Shown piece by piece: positions 72-28,793 of a stretch of 40,017 nt of DNA. The notes under the pieces were generated by a model that saw only the letters and a program-made list of their open reading frames with translations, was not told where the DNA came from and ran no database searches. The DNA is taken from assembly GCA_001874005.1 (NCBI GenBank), contig MNYJ01000134.1, forward strand, positions 1-40,017, written 5' to 3'. How positions within the stretch are numbered: position 1 is the stretch's first letter; each line of letters begins with the position of its first letter. The DNA comes from Desulfobacteraceae bacterium CG2_30_51_40. GTDB lineage: Bacteria; Desulfobacterota; DSM-4660; Desulfatiglandales; Desulfatiglandaceae. The translations under genes and the position numbers were made by a program.

Positions 72-214
72 TGCCCATCCGGAAACGAGATAGTTTCGTC
101 GAGTTCAAGGCGGGCGATAATTTTAACCATAGGAATACATTGACGTATTTCGAGGATTAAAATTTGAGCCCAACGCCGAAATCGGTGAAAATAGCCATTT
201 CCGGATGGACACTA
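69..214 (+). mobile_element. MITE-like element, family 1, copy 1 (146 bp)
   Basis: The ends are inverted repeats: TAGTGCCCATCCGGAAA at 69-85 and TTTCCGGATGGACACTA at 198-214. A second 146-bp copy lies in inverted orientation at 17171-17316 with about four mismatches by eye. There is no room for a transposase, so this fits a non-autonomous miniature inverted-repeat element. The outermost TA at each end could be a TA target duplication of the Tc1/mariner/IS630 kind; that is inference. It lies 51 nt upstream of the sulfatase start. A TTG-initiated frame at 164, inside the element, runs in frame into the sulfatase. Confidence 0.85.
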
Positions 215-10388: not shown

Positions 10389-12074
<1,686 letters not shown>

Positions 12075-17170: not shown

Positions 17171-17316
17171 TAGTGTCCATCCGGAAATGGCTATTTTCAC
17201 CGATTTCGGCGTTGGGCTCAAATTTTAATCCTCGAAATACGTCAATGTATTCCTGTGGTTAAAATTATCGCCCGCCTTGAACTCGACGAAACTATCTCAT
17301 TTCGGGATGGACACTA
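17171..17316 (-). mobile_element. MITE-like element, family 1, copy 2 (146 bp)
   Basis: Inverted copy of the element at 69-214, same length, about four mismatches. Termini are TAGTGTCCATCCGGAAA at 17171-17187 and the slightly diverged TTTCGGGATGGACACTA at 17300-17316. In both copies the same end faces the downstream gene (sulfatase or thiolase), and the internal TTG-initiated frame is in phase with that gene. Outer TA dinucleotides could be target-site duplication. Confidence 0.87.
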
Positions 17317-17473: not shown

Positions 17474-18787
17474 ATGAATCTGCTGGCAAAAGAACTAAAT
17501 GATATTATCCGAGACGTGAACGAGCATGTCTATGAGATGCTTTCTAATGTTGGTAAGGAATTGTTTTTCCCCAAGGGAATTCTTTCCCAGAGCGCGGAGG
17601 CTAAGGCCAAGGCTAAGAAGAACCTTAACGCCACTATAGGCATGGCAACTGAGAAGGGAAAAACCATGCACCTTGCCTCCCTTACCAGGATGCTTACAGG
17701 CGTCACCCCTGAGGAGGCCCTCACATACGCACCTTCCTTCGGCATACTCCCTCTGAGGCAGAAATGGCATGAACTCCAGGTTAAGAAGAATCCTTCCTTG
17801 TCCCGGGTGCCCATAAGTCTTCCAATAGTAACAAACGCCATCACCCACGGCCTTAGCGTTGTCTCCGACATGTGGGTTGATCCAGGGGACGCTATAATCC
17901 TTCCTGATAAGCTCTGGGGAAATTACAATCTCATATTCGCCGTTAGAAGGGCCGCCAGGATGGTCACTTTCCCCTTCTTCGACCAAAAGGGCGGATTCAA
18001 TCTTAAGGCATTCGAGGAATGCGTGCAGAAAGAAAGCGTGGGCAGAAAAAAGATCATAATACTTCTTAACTTCCCTAACAACCCTACCGGCTATACGATT
18101 AGCGATAAAGAGGGAGAAGGTATTGCCGACATCCTCTCAAAGAGTGCGGCATCAGGAACAAACGTAATCGTGCTTTGCGACGATGCCTATTTCGGTCTCT
18201 TTTATGGAGAAGATACACTCAAGGAGTCCATATTTACCAAGCTCATCGGTAGAGAACCCAGGCTGCTTGCCCTCAAGCTGGATGCCGCCACAAAGGAGGA
18301 CTTCGTATGGGGGCTCAGGGTTGGTTTCATTACATACGGCCTTAAGGCGCAAGACCGACATGCGGCGGCCTACGATGCCCTGGAGAGAAAAACCGCCGGA
18401 GCTGTGAGGGGATCCATCTCCAATGCCTCTCATCTGAGCCAGGAGCTTGTCTTGAAGGCCTTCGACTCTCCGTCTTACTGGGAAGAGAAAAAAGATAAAT
18501 TTGAGATACTTAAGGAACGAGCCCTTGAGGTAAAGAAGGTGATTGCCGACCCCAAATACAAGGGCTCATTTGAGGCATATCCTTTCAATTCTGGTTATTT
18601 CATGTGCCTTAAGATACTTAAGACTGACGCTGAAAAACTAAGGCTGCATCTGCTGGATAAATACGGCGTGGGTCTCATAAGCCTCGGCGCAACGGACTTA
18701 AGGGTCGCCTTTTCATCCCTTGAAAAGGACGATATCCAAACGCTTTTCGATATCGTGCTTTCAGGAATCAACGATATCGCCTCCTGA
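17474..18787 (+). CDS. PLP-dependent class I/II aminotransferase (aspartate/tyrosine type)
   Basis: A 437-residue fold-type I aminotransferase. The substrate/PLP segments run in order: NAITHG, LNFPNNPTGYTI, VIVLCDDAYFGLFY, then the Schiff-base Lys at about residue 274 in LDAATKEDFVWGLRVGF, and an Arg-bearing C-terminal segment (ATDLRVAFSSLE) for the substrate carboxylate. The LDAATKEDFVWG sequence around the Lys differs from the common SFSK pattern and marks a less-studied subgroup often annotated aromatic-amino-acid/aspartate transaminase. The gene is monocistronic, with a likely promoter at 17391 and a G/C-hairpin repeat after the stop. Exact amino donor and acceptor are unknown. Confidence 0.88.
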   Translation: MNLLAKELNDIIRDVNEHVYEMLSNVGKELFFPKGILSQSAEAKAKAKKNLNATIGMATEKGKTMHLASLTRMLTGVTPEEALTYAPSFGILPLRQKWHELQVKKNPSLSRVPISLPIVTNAITHGLSVVSDMWVDPGDAIILPDKLWGNYNLIFAVRRAARMVTFPFFDQKGGFNLKAFEECVQKESVGRKKIIILLNFPNNPTGYTISDKEGEGIADILSKSAASGTNVIVLCDDAYFGLFYGEDTLKESIFTKLIGREPRLLALKLDAATKEDFVWGLRVGFITYGLKAQDRHAAAYDALERKTAGAVRGSISNASHLSQELVLKAFDSPSYWEEKKDKFEILKERALEVKKVIADPKYKGSFEAYPFNSGYFMCLKILKTDAEKLRLHLLDKYGVGLISLGATDLRVAFSSLEKDDIQTLFDIVLSGINDIAS

Positions 18788-18788
18788 G

Positions 18789-18885
18789 TTTATATGAAAA
18801 CCATCCCAACCCTTCCCTCCCCCATCGCGGGTGAGGGATAAATGAACTGGAGAGGTTTTTACTCTTCGCTATGCCCCCTGCGGAG
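18789..18885 (-). repeat. G/C-hairpin dispersed repeat, family 3, copy c (degenerate)
   Basis: Begins TTTATATGAAAAC directly after the aminotransferase stop and contains CCTTCCCTCCCCCATCG with a partial GGGTGAGGG arm, then TTCGCTATGCCCCCTG. Same orientation as copy b at 15835 but more diverged. It may serve as the aminotransferase terminator. Confidence 0.6.
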
Positions 18886-19113
18886 ATAATAAATTAAAGA
18901 GGCATTTCACCCCACTTGATACATTTTAACCCATTATTGACTTTATATACATATTCCAATTAGATAAGCCCTTTCACCAGTTTCTGATGGGGAGAGTTTT
19001 ACTCATATAAATCTCCATTTACTCCCTCCATGCACCAGCCTGGTTTTCCCGTTATGAAACTTTAAGACTACTTTCCCTATCCTCTTCAATATGTTGAGCT
19101 GATCACCGCTTAG
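18886..19113. other. Intergenic AT-rich region upstream of the sigma-54 promoter
   Basis: No gene recognised. TTGACT at about 18938 followed by TAGATA after roughly 18 bp is a weak sigma-70-like candidate. Activator sites for the sigma-54 promoter at 19114 would be expected here, but I could not identify a clear dyad. Confidence 0.3.
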
Positions 19114-19129
19114 CGGCACGAGAGTTGCT
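19114..19129 (+). promoter_or_regulatory. Sigma-54 (-24/-12) promoter
   Basis: CGGCACGAGAGTTGCT matches the sigma-54 consensus TGGCACG-N4-TTGCW at every position except the first T. The invariant GG (19115-19116) and GC (19127-19128) are separated by ten bases. Transcription would start near 19140, giving a ~58-nt leader before the ATG at 19198. Such a promoter needs an AAA+ enhancer-binding activator, which is not in the window. Confidence 0.78.
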
Positions 19130-19197
19130 TGGAACTTGGGGCTCAGAATGATTGTGATGTCGCGGAGAGCACCCGTAATATTGCTGGAGAGAGGGGA

Positions 19198-19596
19198 ATG
19201 ATAAGGGAAAGGGCCAGGGAAACTGTGTTGCGCAAAGTACTTATCGCAGATCCGAAAATGGCCCTCCCAGATGAGCTTAGCACCTTTTTTCAGAAACGCG
19301 ATATCACTATAATAGGGGTCGCGAATATGAAGGAAACCCTCCTCACGCTCCAGAAGGATGCGGTTGATGTGATGATACTGGGCTCATCCATGCTTGGGGA
19401 GGACTGCAGCCTGATTCCCATTGTAAAAGGGATTCAGCACAGCATTCCTATTATTGTATGCGCCGATGTAAACAGCCCCGAACTCGAAAGGTGCGCCCGT
19501 CAGAAGGGAATATTCTTTTACCATATAAAATCCTTTGGGAACCAGGATCTGGAGATGGCCATTGAGGGCGCCCTGCAAAAATCGTCCCGGCAATGA
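19198..19596 (+). CDS. Receiver-like protein lacking the phospho-acceptor Asp
   Basis: A 132-residue single-domain protein with the layout of a CheY-like receiver: RKVLIADPKMALPDEL (beta-1 and acidic loop, D18), DVMILGSSMLGED (beta-3), IPIIVCADV (beta-4) and FFYHIKSFG, where the conserved Lys is retained. At the position where receivers carry the phosphorylated Asp there is Gly62 (ILG for ILD), and only one Asp remains in the acidic pocket. It is therefore probably a pseudo-receiver that cannot be phosphorylated in the usual way. The ATG at 19198 follows GGAGAGAGGGG; a longer TTG frame at 19129 overlaps the promoter and is rejected. It is read from a sigma-54 promoter and is followed 228 bp later by the metF-hdrA cluster, whose expression it may share or influence. 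Confidence 0.7.
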   Translation: MIRERARETVLRKVLIADPKMALPDELSTFFQKRDITIIGVANMKETLLTLQKDAVDVMILGSSMLGEDCSLIPIVKGIQHSIPIIVCADVNSPELERCARQKGIFFYHIKSFGNQDLEMAIEGALQKSSRQ

Positions 19597-19824
19597 TGGG
19601 CCCGCAGGAAATCATGATCGGGACGGGAAAGCATAAGGAAACGGTTACAAGGCGCTTGCACTTTAGAGCCGCCTGAATGGTGAGGCGTCAAGGCGCAGCA
19701 GAGAGCACGCTCCGGAGAAATAAAAAAGCGCAGTCATCCCCACTCCGTGACGATGGGGGATGCAGCGAGTGCATTTGACGGGCTCTATACGAAGCCCTCA
19801 ACAAGAGGATTGGAGGATCATGAC
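19597..19824. other. Gap before metF1, with a hairpin
   Basis: No gene recognised. CATCCCC (19735-19741) can pair with GGGGATG (19756-19762) across a 14-nt loop. There is no clear sigma-70 promoter, so read-through from the sigma-54 promoter at 19114 is possible. Confidence 0.35.
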
Positions 19825-20700
19825 ATGCCGTTGAAGGAAAAGATAGAGGCAGGCGGTTTTGCGGTTCTTGCCGAGCTTGAACCCCCAAAGGGCGCGGATT
19901 TTCATTCGCTTCTCGCAAATGCCGACCTTGTAAAGGGAAGGGTGGATGCGTTTATGGTGCCCGAGATGGCCAACTCGGTTGTGAAGGCCAGTTCCCTTGG
20001 AGGATGTGCCTTTCTTCAGAACAGGGGCTTTGAAACAGTTCTTCAGGTTTGCTGCCGTGACAGAAACAGGCTGGCTCTGCAGGCTGATATCCTTGCCGCA
20101 GGAGCGATAGGCATAAAGACTGTAATGGTCGTTCAGGGAGATGACATAACTTTTGGAGATCACCATCAGGCAAGGGCCGTAAACGATGTTACCCTCATGC
20201 AGCTTTTGGAGGCCATAGCCGGTCTGAAAAATGGAAAGGACATGGCGGGCATAGAACTAAAAGGCGCTCCTGACTTCTTTGTGGGCTCGACATTCAACGC
20301 CGGCGCGGCCGGCGGTGCCCTTGATCTGGAGATTGAAGAGCTGAAAAAGAAAAAGGGTCTGGGTGCGGCCTTTGTTGTCACAACCCCGGTATTTGACACG
20401 GATATATTCGAAAAACTCCTTGTAAAACTTAAGCCCGTAGGAGTGAGTGTAATACCCACCGTGCTTCTCCTGAAGTCCGCCGGAATGGCTCGCTATATTG
20501 ATCGTAATGTCAAAAACATATTCATTCCGTCCCAGTTGATAGAATCCATTCAGAAAGCCCCTGATAAGCCGGTCGAGTGTGTAAGTATAGCTGGCAAACT
20601 AATATCTAGATTTAAGGAAATGGGCGCTCCCGGGGTGCTTGTCTCAACAATCGGATGGGAAGAAAAGCTGCCTCAGGTTCTTGACGAGGCCAGGTTATAG
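19825..20700 (+). CDS. metF: Methylenetetrahydrofolate reductase, MetF paralogue 1
   Basis: A 291-residue TIM-barrel protein of the MetF family, which reduces 5,10-methylene-tetrahydrofolate to 5-methyl-tetrahydrofolate using FAD (or the reverse in acetate/fatty-acid oxidizers). The catalytic Glu lies in LAELEPPKGADF near the N-terminus; VCCRDRNRLALQAD, VVQGDD and GSTFNAGA are the flavin and folate regions. GGAGG is eight bases before the ATG. It is 16 bp ahead of hdrA, so they are cotranscribed. A second MetF closes the same gene run at 26299; the two are clearly divergent. One may be the catalytic subunit of the Hdr/MetV complex and the other an auxiliary or differently specific enzyme. Which is which is not decided by sequence. 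Confidence 0.85.
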   Translation: MPLKEKIEAGGFAVLAELEPPKGADFHSLLANADLVKGRVDAFMVPEMANSVVKASSLGGCAFLQNRGFETVLQVCCRDRNRLALQADILAAGAIGIKTVMVVQGDDITFGDHHQARAVNDVTLMQLLEAIAGLKNGKDMAGIELKGAPDFFVGSTFNAGAAGGALDLEIEELKKKKGLGAAFVVTTPVFDTDIFEKLLVKLKPVGVSVIPTVLLLKSAGMARYIDRNVKNIFIPSQLIESIQKAPDKPVECVSIAGKLISRFKEMGAPGVLVSTIGWEEKLPQVLDEARL

Positions 20701-20716
20701 GAAAGGATTGAAGATT

Positions 20717-23700
20717 ATGACCGAGCAGGAAACTAACAGAATATCAGGCTCCGTTATGGTCCTGGGCGGAGGCATTGCAGGAATGCAGTCCGCCCTGGAC
20801 CTAGCAAATTCAGGTTATTATGTCTATCTGGTCGAGGGCACCTCTGCCATTGGAGGGATGATGTCGCAGCTTGACAAGACATTTCCCACCAATGACTGCG
20901 CCATGTGAGTGATCTCCCCCAAACTGGTCGAGGTCGGCCGGCATCTGAACATAGAACTTCTCACAAATACGGAGCTGTTAGATCTGGAAGGAGGACCGGG
21001 CAATTTCAAGGCGCACATAAGGCAGAACCCCAGATATATTGACTTATCGAAATGCACGAGTTGCGGAGAATGCGCCAAGGTATGCCCCATAGAGTTGGAA
21101 AACGAATTCGATAAGAACCTCTCAAAGAGAAAGGCCGCCTTCAAGAGATATCCCCAGGCCATACCCGGCGCCTTTGCGATAGCCAAGAGGGGCACCGCCC
21201 CCTGCAAGGCCACCTGCCCTGCCCATGTAAGCATACAGGGATATGTGGCCCTTACAAATCAGGGGAAATACAGAGAAGCGCTTGAACTCTTCAAGGAAGC
21301 CCATCCCTTTCCAGCCATCTGCGGAAGGGTGTGCCATCATCCATGTGAGGGTGTCTGCACAAGAGGGGATGTAGAGGAGCCAATAGCAATTCAGCACCTC
21401 CACAGATTTCTTGCAGATACCGACCTCAATTCTGGTGACAGGTACACTCCGCAGGTAAAGGAGGAGCGTGAGGAGAAAGTGGCCGTGATAGGAGCAGGCC
21501 CTGCCGGGCTTTCGGCTGCGTATTTTCTGAGGCTTAGAGGCTACAAGATCACCATATTTGAAAAGCTGCCGGTTGTGGGCGGCATGATGGCTGTGGGTAT
21601 CCCGGCATACAGGCTTCCAAGAGACGTTCTTAAGGCCGAGATAAAGGTTATCGAGGATATGGGTGTTAAGATCAAGACCGGGGTTTGTTTTGGAACCGAT
21701 ATAACCGCCCAAGGATTAAAGAGTGAAGGGTTTAAGGCAATATTTATAGCGACGGGACTTCATCTGAGCAGAAAACTCGGAGTCGAAGGGGAAGACTCGC
21801 CTGGTGTTCTCAAAGGTGTTGATTTTTTAAGAGAAGTAGCACTTGAGGGCAAGGCCGCAGTTGGGAAAAAAGTCGTCGTTGTTGGCGGAGGAAACGTAGC
21901 AATAGATGTCGCCCTTTCCGCGCTCAGGGTCGGTGCCGAGGATGTAACCCTCGTGTGCCTTGAAAAGCGCGATGAGATGCCTGCCTGGAAGTATGAAATC
22001 GAAGAGGCCCTGGAGGAAGGCGTTAAGATAGTAAACAGCCTTGGGCCTAAGAAATTCCTTTCAGAGGGAGGAAGGCTCACCGGCATCACCTTCAAGTGCT
22101 GCACAAGGGTCTTTGACGACATGGGGAGATTCAATCCTCAGTACGATGAGAATGCCCTCACCTCTTTTGATGCCGATACCGTAATTGTCGCAATCGGACA
22201 GGCGGCGGATCTCTCATTTGCCGAAGGTAACGGCATAGCAAAGACGCAGCGCGGCGGACTCGAGGCAGACCGTCTCACGCTTGCAACGCCCCTGGAAGGG
22301 GTATTTGCCGGCGGAGACGTCTTTTACGGTCCCAGGTCGGTGGTGGAAGCGGTGGAATGCGGCAAGGAGGCAGCGGAGAGCATTCACAGGTTCGTCAACG
22401 GGATGGATATTAAAGAGGGCAGGGAAAAAGACTGGTCATATGAAAAGCCCGACATCTCCAACGAAACCTTTCTTCCCAGGACAGGTATGAGAACAATGCC
22501 AGTTGAAAGCAGAAAGGGCAACTTCGATGAAATAGCCCTTGGCTTCAGCGAAGATGAGGCAAGGAAGGAGGCGCTGCGCTGTCTTAAATGCGGAATATGT
22601 TCAGAATGCTATCAGTGCGTGAAGGCCTGCCTTGCCGGGGCAGTCAACCACGACCAGAAGGCGGTGGAAAGAGATCTTACAATAGGCTCCCTCGTTCTCT
22701 GCCCCGGAAGCGATCCCTTTGATCCCCTCCCGCTTGAGAACTTCTATCACCACGGGTCTCATCCCAATGTTCTTACAAGCCTTGAGTTTGAAAGGATTCT
22801 GAGCGCATCAGGTCCCACCATGGGGCATCTGGAAAGACCCTCCGACAAGAAGGAGCCTGAAAGGATCGCCTGGCTTCAATGCGTTGGCTCCCGTGACATG
22901 AACCGCTGCGGAAATGGTTACTGCTCAGCTGTGTGCTGCATGTACGCTACGAAGGAGGCAGTTATAGCAAAAGACCACAGTCATGGAGGTCTTGAGGCGA
23001 CCATATTTTATATGGATATGCGCACCTTTGGAAAGGACTACGAGAAATACTACGACCGGGCCGTGAACGAGCACGGAGTGAGGTTCGTCCGCTCAAGGGT
23101 GCACACGGTTGCGCCCATAGAGGGAACAGGCGACCTTATGCTCAGCTACTCGGATGAGGACGGAGTCATACATGAAGAAGTATTCGATATGGTCGTCCTC
23201 TCGGTGGGCCTTACCATAAACAAGAAAACTTTAGAGCTGGCCGAAAAGCTGGGTCTTGCGGTTGACAAGTATGGATTTGCAAGCACAGAGACCTTCAAGC
23301 CGGTTTCCACTTCAAGACCTGGGGTCTTTGCCTGCGGCGTGTTCCAGGGGCCCAAAGACATCCCAAGTTCGGTTACAGAGGCAAGCGCAGCAGCCGCAGC
23401 CGCAGGAAAGATTATGAGCGGGGCGAGAGGAACAGACGTAAAGGTACTGCATCTGCCGGAGGAGCGTGACGTCCTGGGAGAAGAACCCAGGGTCGGCGTC
23501 TTTGTCTGTAACTGCGGCATAAATATCGCCGGGGTAGTGGATGTGCCCAACGTGGTTGAATACGCCAAGAGACTGCCTAATGTAGTTTTTGCCGATCACA
23601 ACCTGTTCACCTGCGCTCAGGATACTCAGGAGAAGATGAAACAGGTCATAAAGGAGCAAAACCTCAACCGCATAGTGGTTGCATCCTGCACTCCAAGGAC

Positions 23701-25153
23701 TCATGAGCCATTGTTTCAGGAGACTCTTCAGGCATGCGGCCTGAACAAGTACCTTTTCGAGATGGCCAACATAAGGGATCAGAACTCCTGGGTGCACGGG
23801 GATAATCCAGAGGGAGCGACCGTAAAGGCCAAGGACTTGGTAAGGATGGCTGTGGCGAGGGTGGCTCTACTGTCTCCCCTCAGGGAAAAGAAGATATCAA
23901 TAAAGCGCAGGGCGCTTGTGATAGGCGGAGGTGTCGCGGGAATAAACGCGGCCCTCACTCTGGGAGATCAGGGCTTTGAATGCGTGCTTGTGGAAAAGGA
24001 GCCTGAGCTTGGAGGGCTTTCCAGGAGGCTCACAACCACGATTGACGGCTCCGACATAAGGAAATATCTCGAAGAGCTTATTGAAAAGGTAAAGAAACAT
24101 TCAAAGATACAGGTTCTTACAAACTCCCTGATAGTGAACTTCAAGGGCTTTAAGGGAAACTTCACGACAGAGGTGCTCGTCGGCCCCGGAATGTATGAAA
24201 GAAAGATAGAGCACGGGGTCGTAATCGTAGCGACGGGAGCCAGGGAATACCGGCCCACCGAGTTTCTCTACGGTCAGCACGAAGGAATAATCACCCAGAT
24301 AGATCTATCCAGGCGTATCGAAGAAAAGGGGGCATCTGATCTCTCAAGCGTAGTCATGATCCAGTGTGTAGGATCGAGAAACGAGCAAAATCCGATATGC
24401 TCCAGAGTCTGCTGTCAAAGCGCTGTCAAAAACGCTCTTCACATAAAGGAACTCAATCCTGACGCACAGGTCTTTATCCTCTATAGAGACCTTCGCACCT
24501 ACGGCCTGCTTGAGGACTACTATAGAGAGGCGAGGCGCAAAGGAGTAATGTTCTTCCGATATAAGAAGGAGGCGCCTCCTATGGTTGAGAATCTGAACGG
24601 TGCTCTCACCGTGACATTCCGCGATCATGTCCTCGGAAGGGATATAAGGGTAGGAGCAGACCTAGTAACGCTGAGCGCGGGCATGGTCGCTGAGGACACG
24701 GAGGAACTTGCCTCCATCCTGAAACTTGCAAGAAACAAGGAAGGGTATTTTCTTGAGGCCCATGTAAAACTCAGACCGGTGGATATGGCCGGCGAAGGAA
24801 TCTTCCTTTGCGGAACAGCACACAGTCCGAAACTTATATCCGAGTCCATATCCCAGGCCCTGGCAGCAGCATCGAGGGCGACCACCTTCCTGTCCCAGAA
24901 AGAACTTACACTTTCCGCGGTAACGGCAAAGGTGAACCAGGATAAATGCGCCTCCTGTCTTATTTGCGTCAGATCATGCCCGGCAGGGGTGCCCAGGATA
25001 AACGAACAGGGTGTGAGCGAGATAGACGAGGCATTGTGTCTGGGATGCGGAATCTGCGCAGCCGAATGCCCGGCCAAGGCCATAGAGCTTAATTGGTATG
25101 AGGATGAACAGGTAATGAGCAAGGTGGATGCACTATTGGAAGGAGTGATGTAA
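20717..25153 (+). CDS. hdrA: Composite HdrA with NAD(P)H module; in-frame UGA read as selenocysteine
   Basis: Read through the TGA at 20906-20908 this is one 1478-residue flavo-iron-sulfur protein. It begins with an HdrA FAD site (VLGGGIAGMQSALDLA), then FPTNDCAM-U64-VISPKL; HdrA normally has Cys at the U position and both flanks are family-conserved. Next come a 4Fe-4S site CTSCGECAKVCP (~113-124), an inserted GltD/NfnB-like unit with its own Cys cluster (~163-214) and two Rossmann folds (VIGAGPAGLSAA ~257; VVVGGGNVAIDVA), and CLKCGICSECYQCVKAC (~622). A second HdrA-like half follows (VFVCNCGINIAG ~926; VIGGGVAGINAAL ~1068), then two C-terminal 4Fe-4S sites (CASCLICVRSCP ~1411; CLGCGICAAECP ~1442). 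HdrA proteins carry out flavin-based electron bifurcation; the insert suggests NAD(P)H use. It overlaps mvhD by one base. Confidence 0.9.
20909..20945 (+). promoter_or_regulatory. Candidate bacterial SECIS stem-loop after the hdrA UGA
   Basis: CTGGTC (20924-20929) can pair with GGCCGG (20936-20941), using G-U pairs, around the six-base loop GAGGTC. The loop holds a GGU of the kind that SelB recognises in bacterial SECIS hairpins, and starts 22 bases after the UGA, within the usual distance. Folded by eye only. Confidence 0.5.
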
Positions 25154-25584
25154 TGGATGATTTCAAGCCGATCATAATAGCGTTTTGCTGTAATTTCTGA
25201 GGGTACACAGCCGCGGACCTGGCAGGTTCCATGAGGCTCAGATACCCTGACACAATAAGAATCGTAAGGCTTCCGTGCACCGGAAAGGTTGATGTAGGCT
25301 ATATACTCAGAGCTTTTGAAAAGGGCGCGGACGGGGTCTATGTAGTCGGGTGCATGGAGGGTGACTGCAGATACAACAGGGGCAATCTAAGGGCCAAAAA
25401 GAGGGTCGCTGAAGCTAGGAGGATACTGAACATCGTGGGCATAGGAGGTGAGAGGGTTCAGATGTTCAATCTCTCATCCGCCGAAGGTCCCAAGTTCGCC
25501 CAGATAGCCCTGGATATGACTGAGAAGATAAAGGCCATGGGCCCTAATCCCGTTAAACTGAAAAAAATGAAGAAAGCTGCATAA
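25153..25584 (+). CDS. mvhD: MvhD-type [2Fe-2S] electron-transfer protein; in-frame UGA read as selenocysteine
   Basis: Read through the TGA at 25198-25200 this is 143 residues, beginning MDDFKPIIIAFCCNF-U16-GYTAADLAGSMRL. MvhD/FrhD family proteins normally have CCNWC at this position, so U replaces the last Cys of the motif; selenocysteine versions (VhuD) are known in some methanogens. The remaining conserved Cys lie in RLPCTGKVD and VVGCMEGDCRYNRGN. The protein passes electrons between a donor and HdrA through a 2Fe-2S centre. The ATG at 25153 overlaps the hdrA stop (TAATG), indicating translational coupling. Without read-through, only an in-frame ATG at 25231 would remain, losing the cluster motif. 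Confidence 0.9.
25201..25240 (+). promoter_or_regulatory. Candidate bacterial SECIS stem-loop after the mvhD UGA
   Basis: An outer stem AGCC (25209-25212) with GGCT (25235-25238) encloses GGACCT (25215-25220) pairing with AGG and TCC separated by one bulged T, around a GGC loop (25221-25223). A small G-containing loop and a bulged U are the hallmarks of bacterial SECIS hairpins. Folded by eye only. Confidence 0.5.
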
Positions 25585-25633: not shown

Positions 25634-26302
25634 ATGATCGTTGCCGATAGGAAGCCCATTGAGGAGATAATCGAATACATAAAGGACAGGGACAAGGTCC
25701 TTATTGTGGGATGTAACGAATGCGTGACCGTATGTGAGGCAGGCGGGAAAAAAGAGGTTGGGGTCCTCGCCTCAGCCCTGCGAATGTATTTCATGAACCA
25801 GGGTAAGGAGATCAAGATAGACGAAGTAACCCTGGAGAGGCAATGCGACCACGAATACCTAGAGGAGATACGCAACATCGTGGATCAATACCAGGCCATC
25901 GTATCGCTTGCATGCGGTGTGGGCGTTCAGTTCATGAGCGAGAAGTACTTCAAGACACAGGTCTATCCAGGGGTTAATACCTGCTTTATGGGTGTCACTG
26001 AGGAGCGGGGTGTATGGAGCGAAAGATGCCAGGGTTGCGGCCAGTGCATCCTTGCAACCACCGGGGGCATTTGCCCTGTTTCAAGGTGTGCCAAGAGGCT
26101 TTTGAACGGCCCGTGCGGAGGATCGAGCAAGGGCATGTGCGAAATAGGAGGCGAAGTGCCCTGCGCCTGGCAGATCATTATTGACAAGCTCACGGCCCTT
26201 GGGAGGCTCGATGACTATGAGAAGCTGGCGCCCTTAAAGGACTGGTCAAAAGAAAGGGCCGGAGGCCCGCGTAAAGTGGTAAGGGAGGATGTCAGACAAT
26301 GA
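25634..26302 (+). CDS. metV: MetV: zinc/iron-sulfur subunit of methylenetetrahydrofolate reductase
   Basis: A 222-residue protein of the MTHFR C-terminal-domain family (MetV). Conserved Cys-rich segments are VGCNECVTVCEAGGKK (near residue 23), QCDHEYL, SLACGVGVQ, RCQGCGQCILATTGGICPVSRCAKRLLNGPCGG and MCEIGGEVPC, cited in parts. In Moorella and relatives MetV forms a core with MetF, binding iron-sulfur clusters, and links MetF to HdrA/MvhD. The start follows GGAGG. It begins 49 bp after mvhD and its stop overlaps metF2 by four bases (ATGA), so the order MvhD-MetV-MetF is translationally organised as a complex. Confidence 0.92.
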   Translation: MIVADRKPIEEIIEYIKDRDKVLIVGCNECVTVCEAGGKKEVGVLASALRMYFMNQGKEIKIDEVTLERQCDHEYLEEIRNIVDQYQAIVSLACGVGVQFMSEKYFKTQVYPGVNTCFMGVTEERGVWSERCQGCGQCILATTGGICPVSRCAKRLLNGPCGGSSKGMCEIGGEVPCAWQIIIDKLTALGRLDDYEKLAPLKDWSKERAGGPRKVVREDVRQ

Positions 26303-27249
26303 ATCAGACTCGTGCAGTTAAGACCGACAGCAAACTTGAAAAGATACTGGCGGCGGGACACCTTGCAGTTACGTCGGAATGCGGGCCTCCAAGAGGAAGC
26401 GACTCCGATCTGATCAAGAAGAAAGCTGAGTTGATCAAAAACCATGTGGATGCGATCAACATAACGGACAACCAGACATCGGTAACAAGGCTTTGCAGCC
26501 TTGCCTCCTGCATCCATCTTAAGCTGATGGGGCTGGAGCCGGTTCTTCAGATGGTGGTAAGGGATAGAAACCGCATCGCCATTCAAAGCGACGTTCTGGG
26601 AGCAGCTTCATTCGACATAAGAAACATGCTCTGCTTGTCCGGAGACCACCAGAGATTCGGCGACTCCTCCCAGGGGCAGAACGTCTTTGATCTTGATTCC
26701 ATGCAACTCATTCAGACCGTGAGAAGAATGCGCGACGAAGGCAAGTTTCTCGGCGGAGACGAGATAAAGAGGCCGCCTAAACTCTTTGTTGGAGCTGCCG
26801 CAAATCCATTTGCTGACCCCTTCGAGATAAGGGTGCGGCGTCTGGCTAAAAAGGCTGCGGCAGGGGCTGAATTCATTCAGACTCAATGCATCTACAACCT
26901 TGATAGATTTGAGGAATGGATGAAGCAGGTCAGAGACAGAGGTCTTCACGAAAAGGTCTATATACTTGCAGGGCTTACCCCGCTGAAATCAGCCGGCATG
27001 GCCAAATATATGAAAAACAGGGTTCCGGGAATGGATGTTCCTGATGATGTTGTAAAGCGAATGTCTGGTGTGCCAAAGGAAAAACAGCCGGAGGAAGGAA
27101 TCAAGATATGTGTTGAATCCGTCCAGAGACTCAAAGAACTGGAGGGTGTGGCCGGTTTCCATATCATGGCTATAGAGTGGGAAGAAAAAGTGCCGGAGAT
27201 AGTTGAAATGGGAGGGCTTTATCCCAGGCCCAATCCGGATGCAATTTGA
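26299..27249 (+). CDS. metF: Methylenetetrahydrofolate reductase, MetF paralogue 2
   Basis: A 316-residue MetF TIM-barrel protein. Catalytic Glu is in VTSECGPPRGSDSD; VVRDRNRIAIQSD, MLCLSGDH and FVGAAANPFADP are the flavin/folate regions, and FIQTQCIYN and LAGLTPLKSAGMAKY complete the family pattern. It is longer than paralogue 1 by about 25 residues. ATGA overlap with metV makes this the likely partner of MetV in the reductase core. In the oxidative Wood-Ljungdahl pathway it would oxidise methyl-tetrahydrofolate and send electrons through MetV to MvhD/HdrA. I see no strong terminator after the stop. Confidence 0.92.
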   Translation: MNQTRAVKTDSKLEKILAAGHLAVTSECGPPRGSDSDLIKKKAELIKNHVDAINITDNQTSVTRLCSLASCIHLKLMGLEPVLQMVVRDRNRIAIQSDVLGAASFDIRNMLCLSGDHQRFGDSSQGQNVFDLDSMQLIQTVRRMRDEGKFLGGDEIKRPPKLFVGAAANPFADPFEIRVRRLAKKAAAGAEFIQTQCIYNLDRFEEWMKQVRDRGLHEKVYILAGLTPLKSAGMAKYMKNRVPGMDVPDDVVKRMSGVPKEKQPEEGIKICVESVQRLKELEGVAGFHIMAIEWEEKVPEIVEMGGLYPRPNPDAI

Positions 27250-27368: not shown

Positions 27369-27749
27369 ATGTCCAAGAAATATGTGCTTGTGGTTGACGA
27401 TGATCCCGATCTGGTAGAAACTGTTGGAATGATGCTTGAAAGCAAGGGCTGCGAGGTCGGACGCGCCTATGACGGAGTGGAAGCCGAAGAATCTATTAAG
27501 ATGAGGCGCCCTGACCTGATAGTACTTGATGTCATGATGCCTCGTAAGGACGGTTATGTCCTGTGCGCTGAACTTAAGGCTGATGCCAAGACAAGGGATA
27601 TTCCTGTCGTGCTGCTCACAGCGGTGGGAGAAGCAGTCCCTACGACCAGGTATAGCCACGCGGACGGTATGACAACAGAGGCAGACGATTACGTGCCTAA
27701 ACCGATTGACACCGAAGGGCTCTGGCGGGTTGTAAGTGCCCTTATGTAA
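27369..27749 (+). CDS. CheY-like single-domain response regulator
   Basis: A 126-residue stand-alone receiver. The acidic pocket is VVDDDPD (D10-D12), the phosphorylation site is D54 in LIVLDVMMPRKDGY, and the conserved Thr and Lys lie in LLTAV and YVPKPID (K111). There is no output domain, so it acts by protein-protein contact or in a phosphorelay. A segment of about ten extra residues (VPTTRYSHADGMTTEADD) sits between beta-4 and beta-5. AGGAGGG precedes the ATG. It contrasts with the receiver-like protein at 19198, which lacks the Asp; the two bracket the metF-hdrA run. No histidine kinase is in the window. Confidence 0.9.
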   Translation: MSKKYVLVVDDDPDLVETVGMMLESKGCEVGRAYDGVEAEESIKMRRPDLIVLDVMMPRKDGYVLCAELKADAKTRDIPVVLLTAVGEAVPTTRYSHADGMTTEADDYVPKPIDTEGLWRVVSALM

Positions 27750-27779: not shown

Positions 27780-28793
27780 ATGCCTCGGCCCGAACCATTA
27801 GGCGGCTTTAAGATACTGCGCCCCGCGCTGTTCCTTTCAATGCACGGAGGAAAGGATGCGTACGGGGCGCCACGTTTGTTCTGTGAAGACATTGCCCGCC
27901 ATAAGATCAACCTGGTTTTCCTTAATGTTGATTTTTACCCCCACGGCACAGGAGCGGTTTTCGGTATTCAGGGGGATCAGGCCCGGGAGGCATCCCGTCT
28001 GATAAAGATCCCCGGAACGGTCATTTCCGGTAAGCCGGTCAATTCATCTATAATTTCCCTTTTTCCTCACAAGACCAGACCCGAGGTATCGGGGCTGCTT
28101 ATCGAAAGCCTCGCAAAGAGGGCTCTTATGCCTCTTGCCTTTGCTCAGTCCGCCTCTGCTATTTCAGCGGCCCTCTCAGAGGAGATAACAGATCAGGTCA
28201 CTGAGGCGGTTTTTGAGCCTTTTTCCTTCGGCCCCTACAGGACGCCTGAGGATTGGTCCCTGGCCCAGAAAGGCAAGGAACAGATATATAAAGAAGTGAT
28301 CGCCAGTTATCAGGAAAAGAGGCCGAAGGTCTATGCCCTTGCATGGCAGGGAGGGCAGACCCTTGCAAGGACGGTACTCAGAGAAAAGGCATTTATGAAC
28401 CTGGCTAGCGCCCTCCATGCGATGAACCGACAAGGAACACCGCTGAGCTTTTTTGTCGGAACACCGGCGGATCAGGGAGAATCTATTGCCTTTTCATTGA
28501 CAGTGCCTCACCGGCAGAACTCTGAGATACTGATCCAGTATCTTTCCCGCGATAGTATCGAGATAGGCGAAGGCCTTACCGCAGTTTTTCACATGAACGG
28601 CCCCCATTTCGGAGACAGATACGGAATCGCAGGAATGTTGCTTAAGGCTTTCGACAATGCCGGGCTGAGCCTTATCTCTCTTAGCTGCTCTGTGGCTTCA
28701 ATAACCGGTGTAATAGCCGCTGAAGATATGGAAGCTGCCACGATCGCACTTTCATCTGTTTTCGAAATACCCTCCGTATCGGGAATGAATTGA
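27780..28793 (+). CDS. ACT-domain protein related to aspartokinase regulatory regions
   Basis: A 337-residue soluble protein of uncertain function. The C-terminal ~70 residues (VFHMNGPHFGDRYGIAGM, then KAFDNAGLSLISLSCSVA, then DMEAATIALSSVFEIP) follow the ACT pattern at the end of aspartokinases. A similar ligand-binding-like pattern appears near the N-terminus (LSMHGGKDAYGAPRLFCEDI, KINLVFLNVDF). No kinase domain is present. It starts 30 bp after the response regulator, so the two are probably cotranscribed. An amino-acid-sensing partner for that receiver is a possible reading, not shown by the sequence. The ribosome-binding site is weak, so the start could be further in. Confidence 0.55.
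   Translation: MPRPEPLGGFKILRPALFLSMHGGKDAYGAPRLFCEDIARHKINLVFLNVDFYPHGTGAVFGIQGDQAREASRLIKIPGTVISGKPVNSSIISLFPHKTRPEVSGLLIESLAKRALMPLAFAQSASAISAALSEEITDQVTEAVFEPFSFGPYRTPEDWSLAQKGKEQIYKEVIASYQEKRPKVYALAWQGGQTLARTVLREKAFMNLASALHAMNRQGTPLSFFVGTPADQGESIAFSLTVPHRQNSEILIQYLSRDSIEIGEGLTAVFHMNGPHFGDRYGIAGMLLKAFDNAGLSLISLSCSVASITGVIAAEDMEAATIALSSVFEIPSVSGMN

Follow-up and report, generated by a model that had tools for sequence, protein, structure and literature searches.

Comparative sequence evidence for probable sigma-54 control of a MetF-Hdr operon headed by a pseudo-receiver gene

To our knowledge, the regulation of Hdr- and MetF-dependent electron transfer in strict anaerobes that live close to the thermodynamic limit is largely an open question. 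The present analysis concerns a stretch of 40,017 nucleotides from Desulfobacteraceae bacterium CG2_30_51_40 (assembly GCA_001874005.1, contig MNYJ01000134.1, positions 1 to 40,017; hereafter the window), in which a gene for an aspartate-less receiver, named recP here, stands between a sequence resembling a sigma-54 promoter and the genes metF1 and hdrA. A preliminary description of this DNA had proposed enhancer-dependent control of metF1-hdrA, with the receiver serving as an unphosphorylatable interaction module. Whether the promoter is real, which activator would serve it, how far the transcription unit reaches and what recP may do was addressed by comparing the window genome (G000, with the window as contig C62) with 60 related genomes (61 in total), which are mostly fragmented metagenome assemblies, mutually related and not independent samples; the conclusions rest on sequence-derived evidence throughout. 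The explanation that is considered likely as a whole comprises a sigma-54 promoter, an eight-gene operon, a dedicated activator and a pseudo-receiver acting as adaptor.

When scored against the consensus TGGCACG-N4-TTGCW, in which 12 positions are specified, the sequence at 19114-19129 agrees at 11 positions and possesses the GG-N10-GC core, with only the first T being replaced (by C), as the preliminary description had read it. It is the sole match within the window at one mismatch or fewer, but across the genome (3.44 Mb) 17 such matches are found as compared to 14 for the reversed-pattern control, and the bare match is not significant genome-wide. One of the 17 precedes a gene that we read as amtB-like, for an ammonium transporter, a classical sigma-54 target; this site, TGGCACAAAGGTTGCT (G000:C183:8162-8177, L013), lies 56 bp 5' of the gene and would be a useful positive control for the genome, which further possesses one rpoN and 24 strong matches to PF00158 (AAA+ activators). 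The promoter was accepted as real because it is conserved in relatives and not because of the single match. Clear homologues of recP, meaning an expect value (E) of about 1e-29 or better followed by a gap to about 1e-8, where ordinary receivers are found, were identified in 23 of the 61 genomes, and each of these carries the GG-N10-GC element upstream of recP, so that the conservation on which the preliminary description had made its proposal depend was indeed found. Within 200 bp of the recP start the element has at most three mismatches in 21 of the 23 genomes and at most two in 18 (shuffled sequences: 2.8% and 0.6% per locus), and in the two exceptions it is located at -325 and -392 from the recP start, its spacing to the activator sites described below being as usual. 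Also for recP homologues from other families of the phylum the element is mostly present.

When the DNA 5' of the sigma-54 element in 44 promoters was searched for motifs without supervision, a palindrome-like site emerged that reads GGGKMAWWWTKMCCC or variants thereof, GGGTAATTTTGTAACA among them; at a score of at least 12 bits it is represented by 74 sites in 42 of the 44 promoters, compared to a mean of 0.25 in shuffled sets. The sites cluster near -185, -165 and -90, and their counterparts in the window, at about -215, -197 and -125, are all located some 30 bp, that is three helical turns, farther out. A model trained solely on near relatives still detected sites in most promoters of the other families, several with low scores. 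When a model of the whole enhancer block was run over the 61 genomes, its top ranks were exactly the 23 recP promoters, one per genome (E 1e-21 to 9e-10), the next match scoring 25 bits; six of the 23 genomes were outside the training set and the window promoter was inside it. Further regulon targets were sought via this block model only. Sites resembling that of IHF (at most one mismatch) were found in 20 of the 44 promoters, with 11% being expected. Comparative sequence analysis thereby supports the sequence at 19114-19129 as a sigma-54 promoter and the conserved upstream sites as putative activator-binding sites; the region singled out by the preliminary description covered promoter and gene and left out the enhancer sites at 18899-19004.

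The gene neighbourhood pointed to a candidate for the cognate activator. In four relatives an NtrC-type gene is located 5' of the recP promoter, directly in L051, L058 and L065 and with one divergent gene in between in L056, whereby the L051 protein comprises, according to Pfam, a receiver, a Sigma54_activat (AAA+) domain and a Fis-type helix-turn-helix. A receiver-PAS-kinase hybrid precedes the activator in L051, L056 and L058, and in L051 and L058 the hybrid is itself preceded by a sensor kinase. The activator is likewise found directly 5' of recP in other families (L166, L179-L181, L183, L184) and, in records titled Actinomycetes, KSB1 and Neomarinimicrobiota (L094, L095, L097), next to distantly related homologues of recP. 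In the window genome its ortholog resides on contig C79 (1905-3272, minus strand), shares 68% identity with the L051 protein over its length (next paralog 45%), matches NtrC/AtoC models and displays a GSFTGA loop in its sequence; this gene is likely to encode the activator of the recP promoter. It follows two kinase genes and a second hdrA'-mvhD'-metV'-metF' cluster, the whole arrangement of cluster, sensor kinase, hybrid kinase and sigma-54 activator spanning G000:C79 1905-11974 (L156). Three activator orthologs (G009:C265, G015:C5, G032:C1) show one in-frame TAG, which could reflect a broken gene, an overlong alignment or recoding.

Of the 61 genomes, 21 have both recP and the activator, 2 have recP only, 3 have the activator only and 35 have neither (Fisher p = 4e-11, relatedness uncorrected). 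Eleven genomes possess a close metF1 and no recP, and all 11 lack both the activator and a sigma-54 element of fewer than four mismatches 5' of metF1, most of them carrying a receiver-PAS-kinase gene in this place instead. Apparent decayed remnants of recP were seen just 5' of metF1 in two of these genomes (L117, L125), which have lost activator and sigma-54 element. Adjacency, co-occurrence and a shared site are consistent with the activator binding to the conserved sites. The palindrome recurs 20-130 bp 5' of the hdrA'-kinase-activator operon in the window genome and in five relatives, on C79 at 11996-12011, where no other site in 21 kb exceeds 10.5 bits, and no sigma-54 site with two or fewer mismatches was detected 5' of this operon on C79. 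Because the activator operon carries the same palindrome upstream, it is suggested that the activator probably controls its own operon; the sign of such an autoregulation would be a guess.

As regards the extent of the transcription unit, metF1 follows recP in 22 of 22 relatives, and the order beyond it is hdrA, mvhD, metV, metF2, the canonical receiver and the ACT-like gene as far as the contigs extend, with few departures: L058 has hdrA twice, and L051, L053 and L057 show an additional hdrA match that is shorter. The recP-metF1 junction measures -23 to +25 nt in these relatives, and the two frames overlap in four loci. Since the genes 5' of recP vary among genomes, the unit is taken to begin at the recP promoter, and the comparison supports the recP-led gene order as a conserved operon. 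Together metF, metV, hdrA and mvhD constitute the gene complement of a putative MetF-HdrA-MvhD electron-transfer complex. A simple scan of 18700-20000 returned no sigma-70-type promoter (1.4 expected) and no terminator on the plus strand was matched between recP and metF1, in agreement with what the preliminary description had stated. Its proposal of enhancer-dependent control of metF1-hdrA hence gains support from the conserved promoter, sites and operon order, the short junctions in relatives, rpoN and a matching NtrC-type activator, whereby it had noted the promoter and missed the conserved enhancer sites as well as the likely activator. The features are collected in Table 1.

Table 1. Features of the recP-metF1 region, in window coordinates
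Feature	Position	Strand	Basis
Putative activator site A, GAGGCATTTCACCCC, -215 from the -24 element	18899..18913		aligns with the relatives' conserved palindrome at ~-185; within block match G000:C62:18894-18997, E 8.9e-10
Putative activator site B, GATACATTTTAACCC (reverse complement GGGTTAAAATGTATC)	18918..18932		15.8 bits with the window excluded from training; equalled in 1/1000 shuffles
Weak candidate activator site C, GGGGAGAGTTTTACTC	18989..19004		agrees in position with the relatives' site C (~-95) once the 30-bp offset shared with A and B is allowed for; scores -2.7 bits, tentative
Predicted sigma-54 promoter, -24 GG / -12 GC, CGGCACG-AGAG-TTGCT (CGGCACGAGAGTTGCT), predicted start near 19140	19114..19129	+	motif match; kept before recP in 23/23 gene-bearing genomes
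recP, pseudo-receiver gene, 132 aa (P0001), Gly62 at the phospho-Asp position	19198..19596	+	open reading frame (ORF), Pfam, AlphaFold, Foldseek, homologue alignment
recP-metF1 spacer, 228 nt, this genome only	19597..19824	+	single-copy; without match in Rfam or to promoter or terminator patterns; fold z 0.39
metF1, methylenetetrahydrofolate reductase family	19825..20700	+	PF02219 E 4e-22; ortholog after recP in 22/22 relatives
hdrA with GltD-like NAD(P)H domain, in-frame TGA 20906-20908	20717..25153	+	HdrA2/HdrA and glutamate-synthase-type matches
mvhD (FlpD family)	25231..25584	+	PF02662 E 3e-37
metV-like protein	25634..26302	+	PF12225 'MTHFR C terminal' E 3e-36
metF2, methylenetetrahydrofolate reductase family	26299..27249	+	PF02219 E 1e-34
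Single-domain receiver, canonical residues (VDDD, LDV, LTA, KPI)	27369..27749	+	PF00072 E 6e-24; same place in relatives, ~85% identical
ACT-domain-like protein, function unassigned	27780..28793	+	weak PF22468 match below cut-off; same place in relatives

The TGA within hdrA, in the context NDCAM-TGA-VISPK, recurs in all of the 21 copies of hdrA that were inspected in relatives, and because every copy has it, it is read as probably being a selenocysteine codon; selenocysteine-containing HdrA/HdrL is known from Desulfobacterium autotrophicum (PMC2702500). Elsewhere in the window two unrelated ORFs open with the same translated stretch MSPTPKSVKIAISGWTL, at 164-214 (plus strand) and about 17171-17221 (minus strand), which points to a short DNA repeat upstream of both genes.

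The gene heading the operon probably starts at the ATG at 19198, located behind GGAGAGAGGGG, and not at the TTG at 19129, which begins inside the -12 element. Its product scores 28.2 bits with the Pfam receiver model, just under the cut-off of 30.2; AlphaFold predicts a CheY fold with a predicted local distance difference test score (pLDDT) of 84.8, and the top Foldseek matches are receivers (E 2e-6), so that structure prediction agrees with the CheY-like fold, and the alignment with the glycine at the phospho-acceptor position, that had been described at first. Across 53 homologues the second acidic residue is never acidic, the phospho-Asp is kept in 46 and missing in 7 (three have His), Lys is kept in 40 and missing in 13, Ser/Thr is replaced by Cys in 29, and none combines all five catalytic residues. 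As a pseudo-receiver is defined by the lack of at least one of these five (PMC12632262), the whole family is considered to consist of pseudo-receivers. Judged from the alignment, the glycine is peculiar to the window lineage and does not define the family, the family-wide loss being that of the second acidic residue; the initial notion of an unphosphorylatable interaction module is hence plausible. Among the 53 homologues, beta5 and the beta5-alpha5 loop are the best-conserved parts, with beta4 and alpha4 next. A face of the alpha4-beta5-alpha5 type is commonly used by receivers to dimerise (PMC12632262), and the best-conserved face of the recP product fits an interaction module. The nearest kin of recP are NtrC-type receivers; an origin by duplication of the cognate activator's receiver is not claimed, as the cognate receiver scores 55.8 bits and others 57.0 and 55.9. 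No recP match was found in plasmid records. The canonical receiver of the operon is far better conserved (~85% identity) than the pseudo-receiver (43-54%).

Since Asp and Lys are retained by most of the homologues, recP could be an ordinary receiver which still takes phosphate in most species, as a sink or relay, the glycine of the window representing a lineage-specific loss. This is judged unlikely, as the metal-holding second acidic position is acidic in no homologue and the Ser/Thr position so often carries Cys, and as several lineages have lost Asp or Lys yet retain gene and promoter. Its constant place beside metF1 in the 22 relatives, with frames overlapping in four, would also be expected if the pseudo-receiver served the MetF-Hdr enzyme complex as a subunit or local regulator instead of being a signalling part. 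Quite unlikely as this appears, it is the distribution of the gene that argues against it: genomes of another family retain metF1 without recP, a recP homologue lies beside the activator in L181 and, outside the phylum, in L094, L095 and L097, where the stretch examined gave no match to metF1, and recP tracks the activator and not the enzyme. Because recP follows the activator across genomes and adjoins it where no metF1 was seen, a role as feedback adaptor is favoured over that of an enzyme subunit.

Several observations weigh against the proposed operon and its dedicated activator. In the window genome the activator resides on a different contig (C79) from the promoter; as the genomes are related, the Fisher p overstates independence; recP occurs without a detected activator ortholog in G026 and G034, both fragmented assemblies, and the activator without recP in G001, G009 and G038; the distant loci L180 and L182-L185 contain recP-metF1 without a recognisable sigma-54 element; and the window has a weak third activator site and a poor version of the IHF-like site that is enriched in relatives. 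Moreover, recP and metF1 are 228 nt apart in the window genome, and this spacer, specific to it, could hide a second start. It was rejected both as a repeat or mobile element, being single-copy, and as a riboswitch or structured RNA, lacking an Rfam match and folding no better than shuffles. That a real sigma-54 promoter serves recP only in this genome, with metF1-hdrA having gained a start of their own in the spacer, is what the contrast with the short junctions of the relatives would suggest, but this is very unlikely given that the spacer matched neither a sigma-70-type promoter nor a plus-strand terminator and that the operon, including overlapping frames, is kept in relatives. It is extremely improbable that the -24/-12 match arose by chance, as its genome-wide frequency close to that of the reversed control might indicate, and that the gene is read from upstream or from a sigma-70 promoter, since the spacing between the element and the activator sites is constant across 23 genomes, each of which has the block once.

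The preferred explanation thus assumes that the promoter at 19114-19129 would transcribe eight genes, from the pseudo-receiver gene via metF1, hdrA, mvhD, metV and metF2 to those of the canonical receiver and the ACT-like protein, whereby a single dedicated NtrC-type activator, encoded on C79, would switch the operon on by binding to the palindromes at 18899-18932 and contacting the promoter through a DNA loop. The activator in turn would be driven, presumably through a phospho-relay, by the sensor kinase and by the receiver-PAS-kinase hybrid encoded between sensor and activator. The first 120-130 residues of the sensor gave no match to Pfam, but their predicted fold (pLDDT 82.5, from a three-sequence alignment) resembles NAD(P)-binding Rossmann domains, namely those of acetaldehyde dehydrogenase and GFO/IDH-type oxidoreductases and, less closely, Rex (best E 1e-4), and this NAD(P)-binding-like domain is followed by two PAS domains. 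With the target HdrA carrying a GltD-like NAD(P)H domain, a redox input to the circuit would be attractive. The recP product, having a receiver fold predicted to be incapable of normal phospho-chemistry, would most likely use its conserved alpha4-beta5-alpha5 face to dock on one of the circuit's receivers and tune it as a feedback adaptor; which one would be its partner is a guess. The complete proposal, in which Rossmann-domain kinase, hybrid and NtrC-type activator form a redox circuit exerting sigma-54 control over the MetF-Hdr operon and stand-alone pseudo-receivers are receiver-binding feedback adaptors that are not phosphorylated, is tentative and is regarded as possible rather than probable.

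A sigma-54 switch of an energy operon would appear to be common to a group of sediment-dwelling bacteria related to sulfate reducers, for which a specific circuit is hereby offered, made up of a target operon, predicted binding sites, an activator identified by name and a sensor whose candidate domain may bind NAD(P)H. In addition, the recP family, whose stand-alone pseudo-receivers occur naturally and are linked to one regulator by co-occurrence, bears on how bacterial pseudo-receivers work without phosphorylation. No report of such a regulon was found among the open-licence papers that were searched. The target differs from the sigma-54 regulome of Desulfovibrio vulgaris (PMC4641369) in being a MetF-HdrA-MvhD operon, the terms 'hdr' and 'metF' being absent from the main text of that study and 'heterodisulfide' and 'methylenetetrahydrofolate' from a multi-phylum sigma-54 study. 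The target genes resemble the HdrA/HdrL-MvhD clusters of D. autotrophicum in the selenocysteine-type HdrA/HdrL, the NAD(P)H domain and the adjoining mvhD, but here form one operon with metF1, metV and metF2 and a regulator of its own, the passages of PMC2702500 that were consulted describing no transcriptional control of its Hdr clusters. Like other bacterial pseudo-receivers and aspartate-less receivers (PMC12632262, PMC4395418), the recP product of the window has no Asp; unlike these, recP constitutes a stand-alone family which co-occurs with one sigma-54 activator and has lost the second acidic residue while mostly keeping Asp. By the features tested, the predicted system is an NtrC-type sigma-54 system, sharing with NtrC/AtoC-type systems an activator composed of receiver, AAA+ domain and Fis-type helix-turn-helix, the -24/-12 promoter, palindromic upstream sites and an adjoining sensor kinase, and it is set apart from them by two kinases in one set, by a pseudo-receiver heading the target operon and by the same site in front of the activator's own operon.
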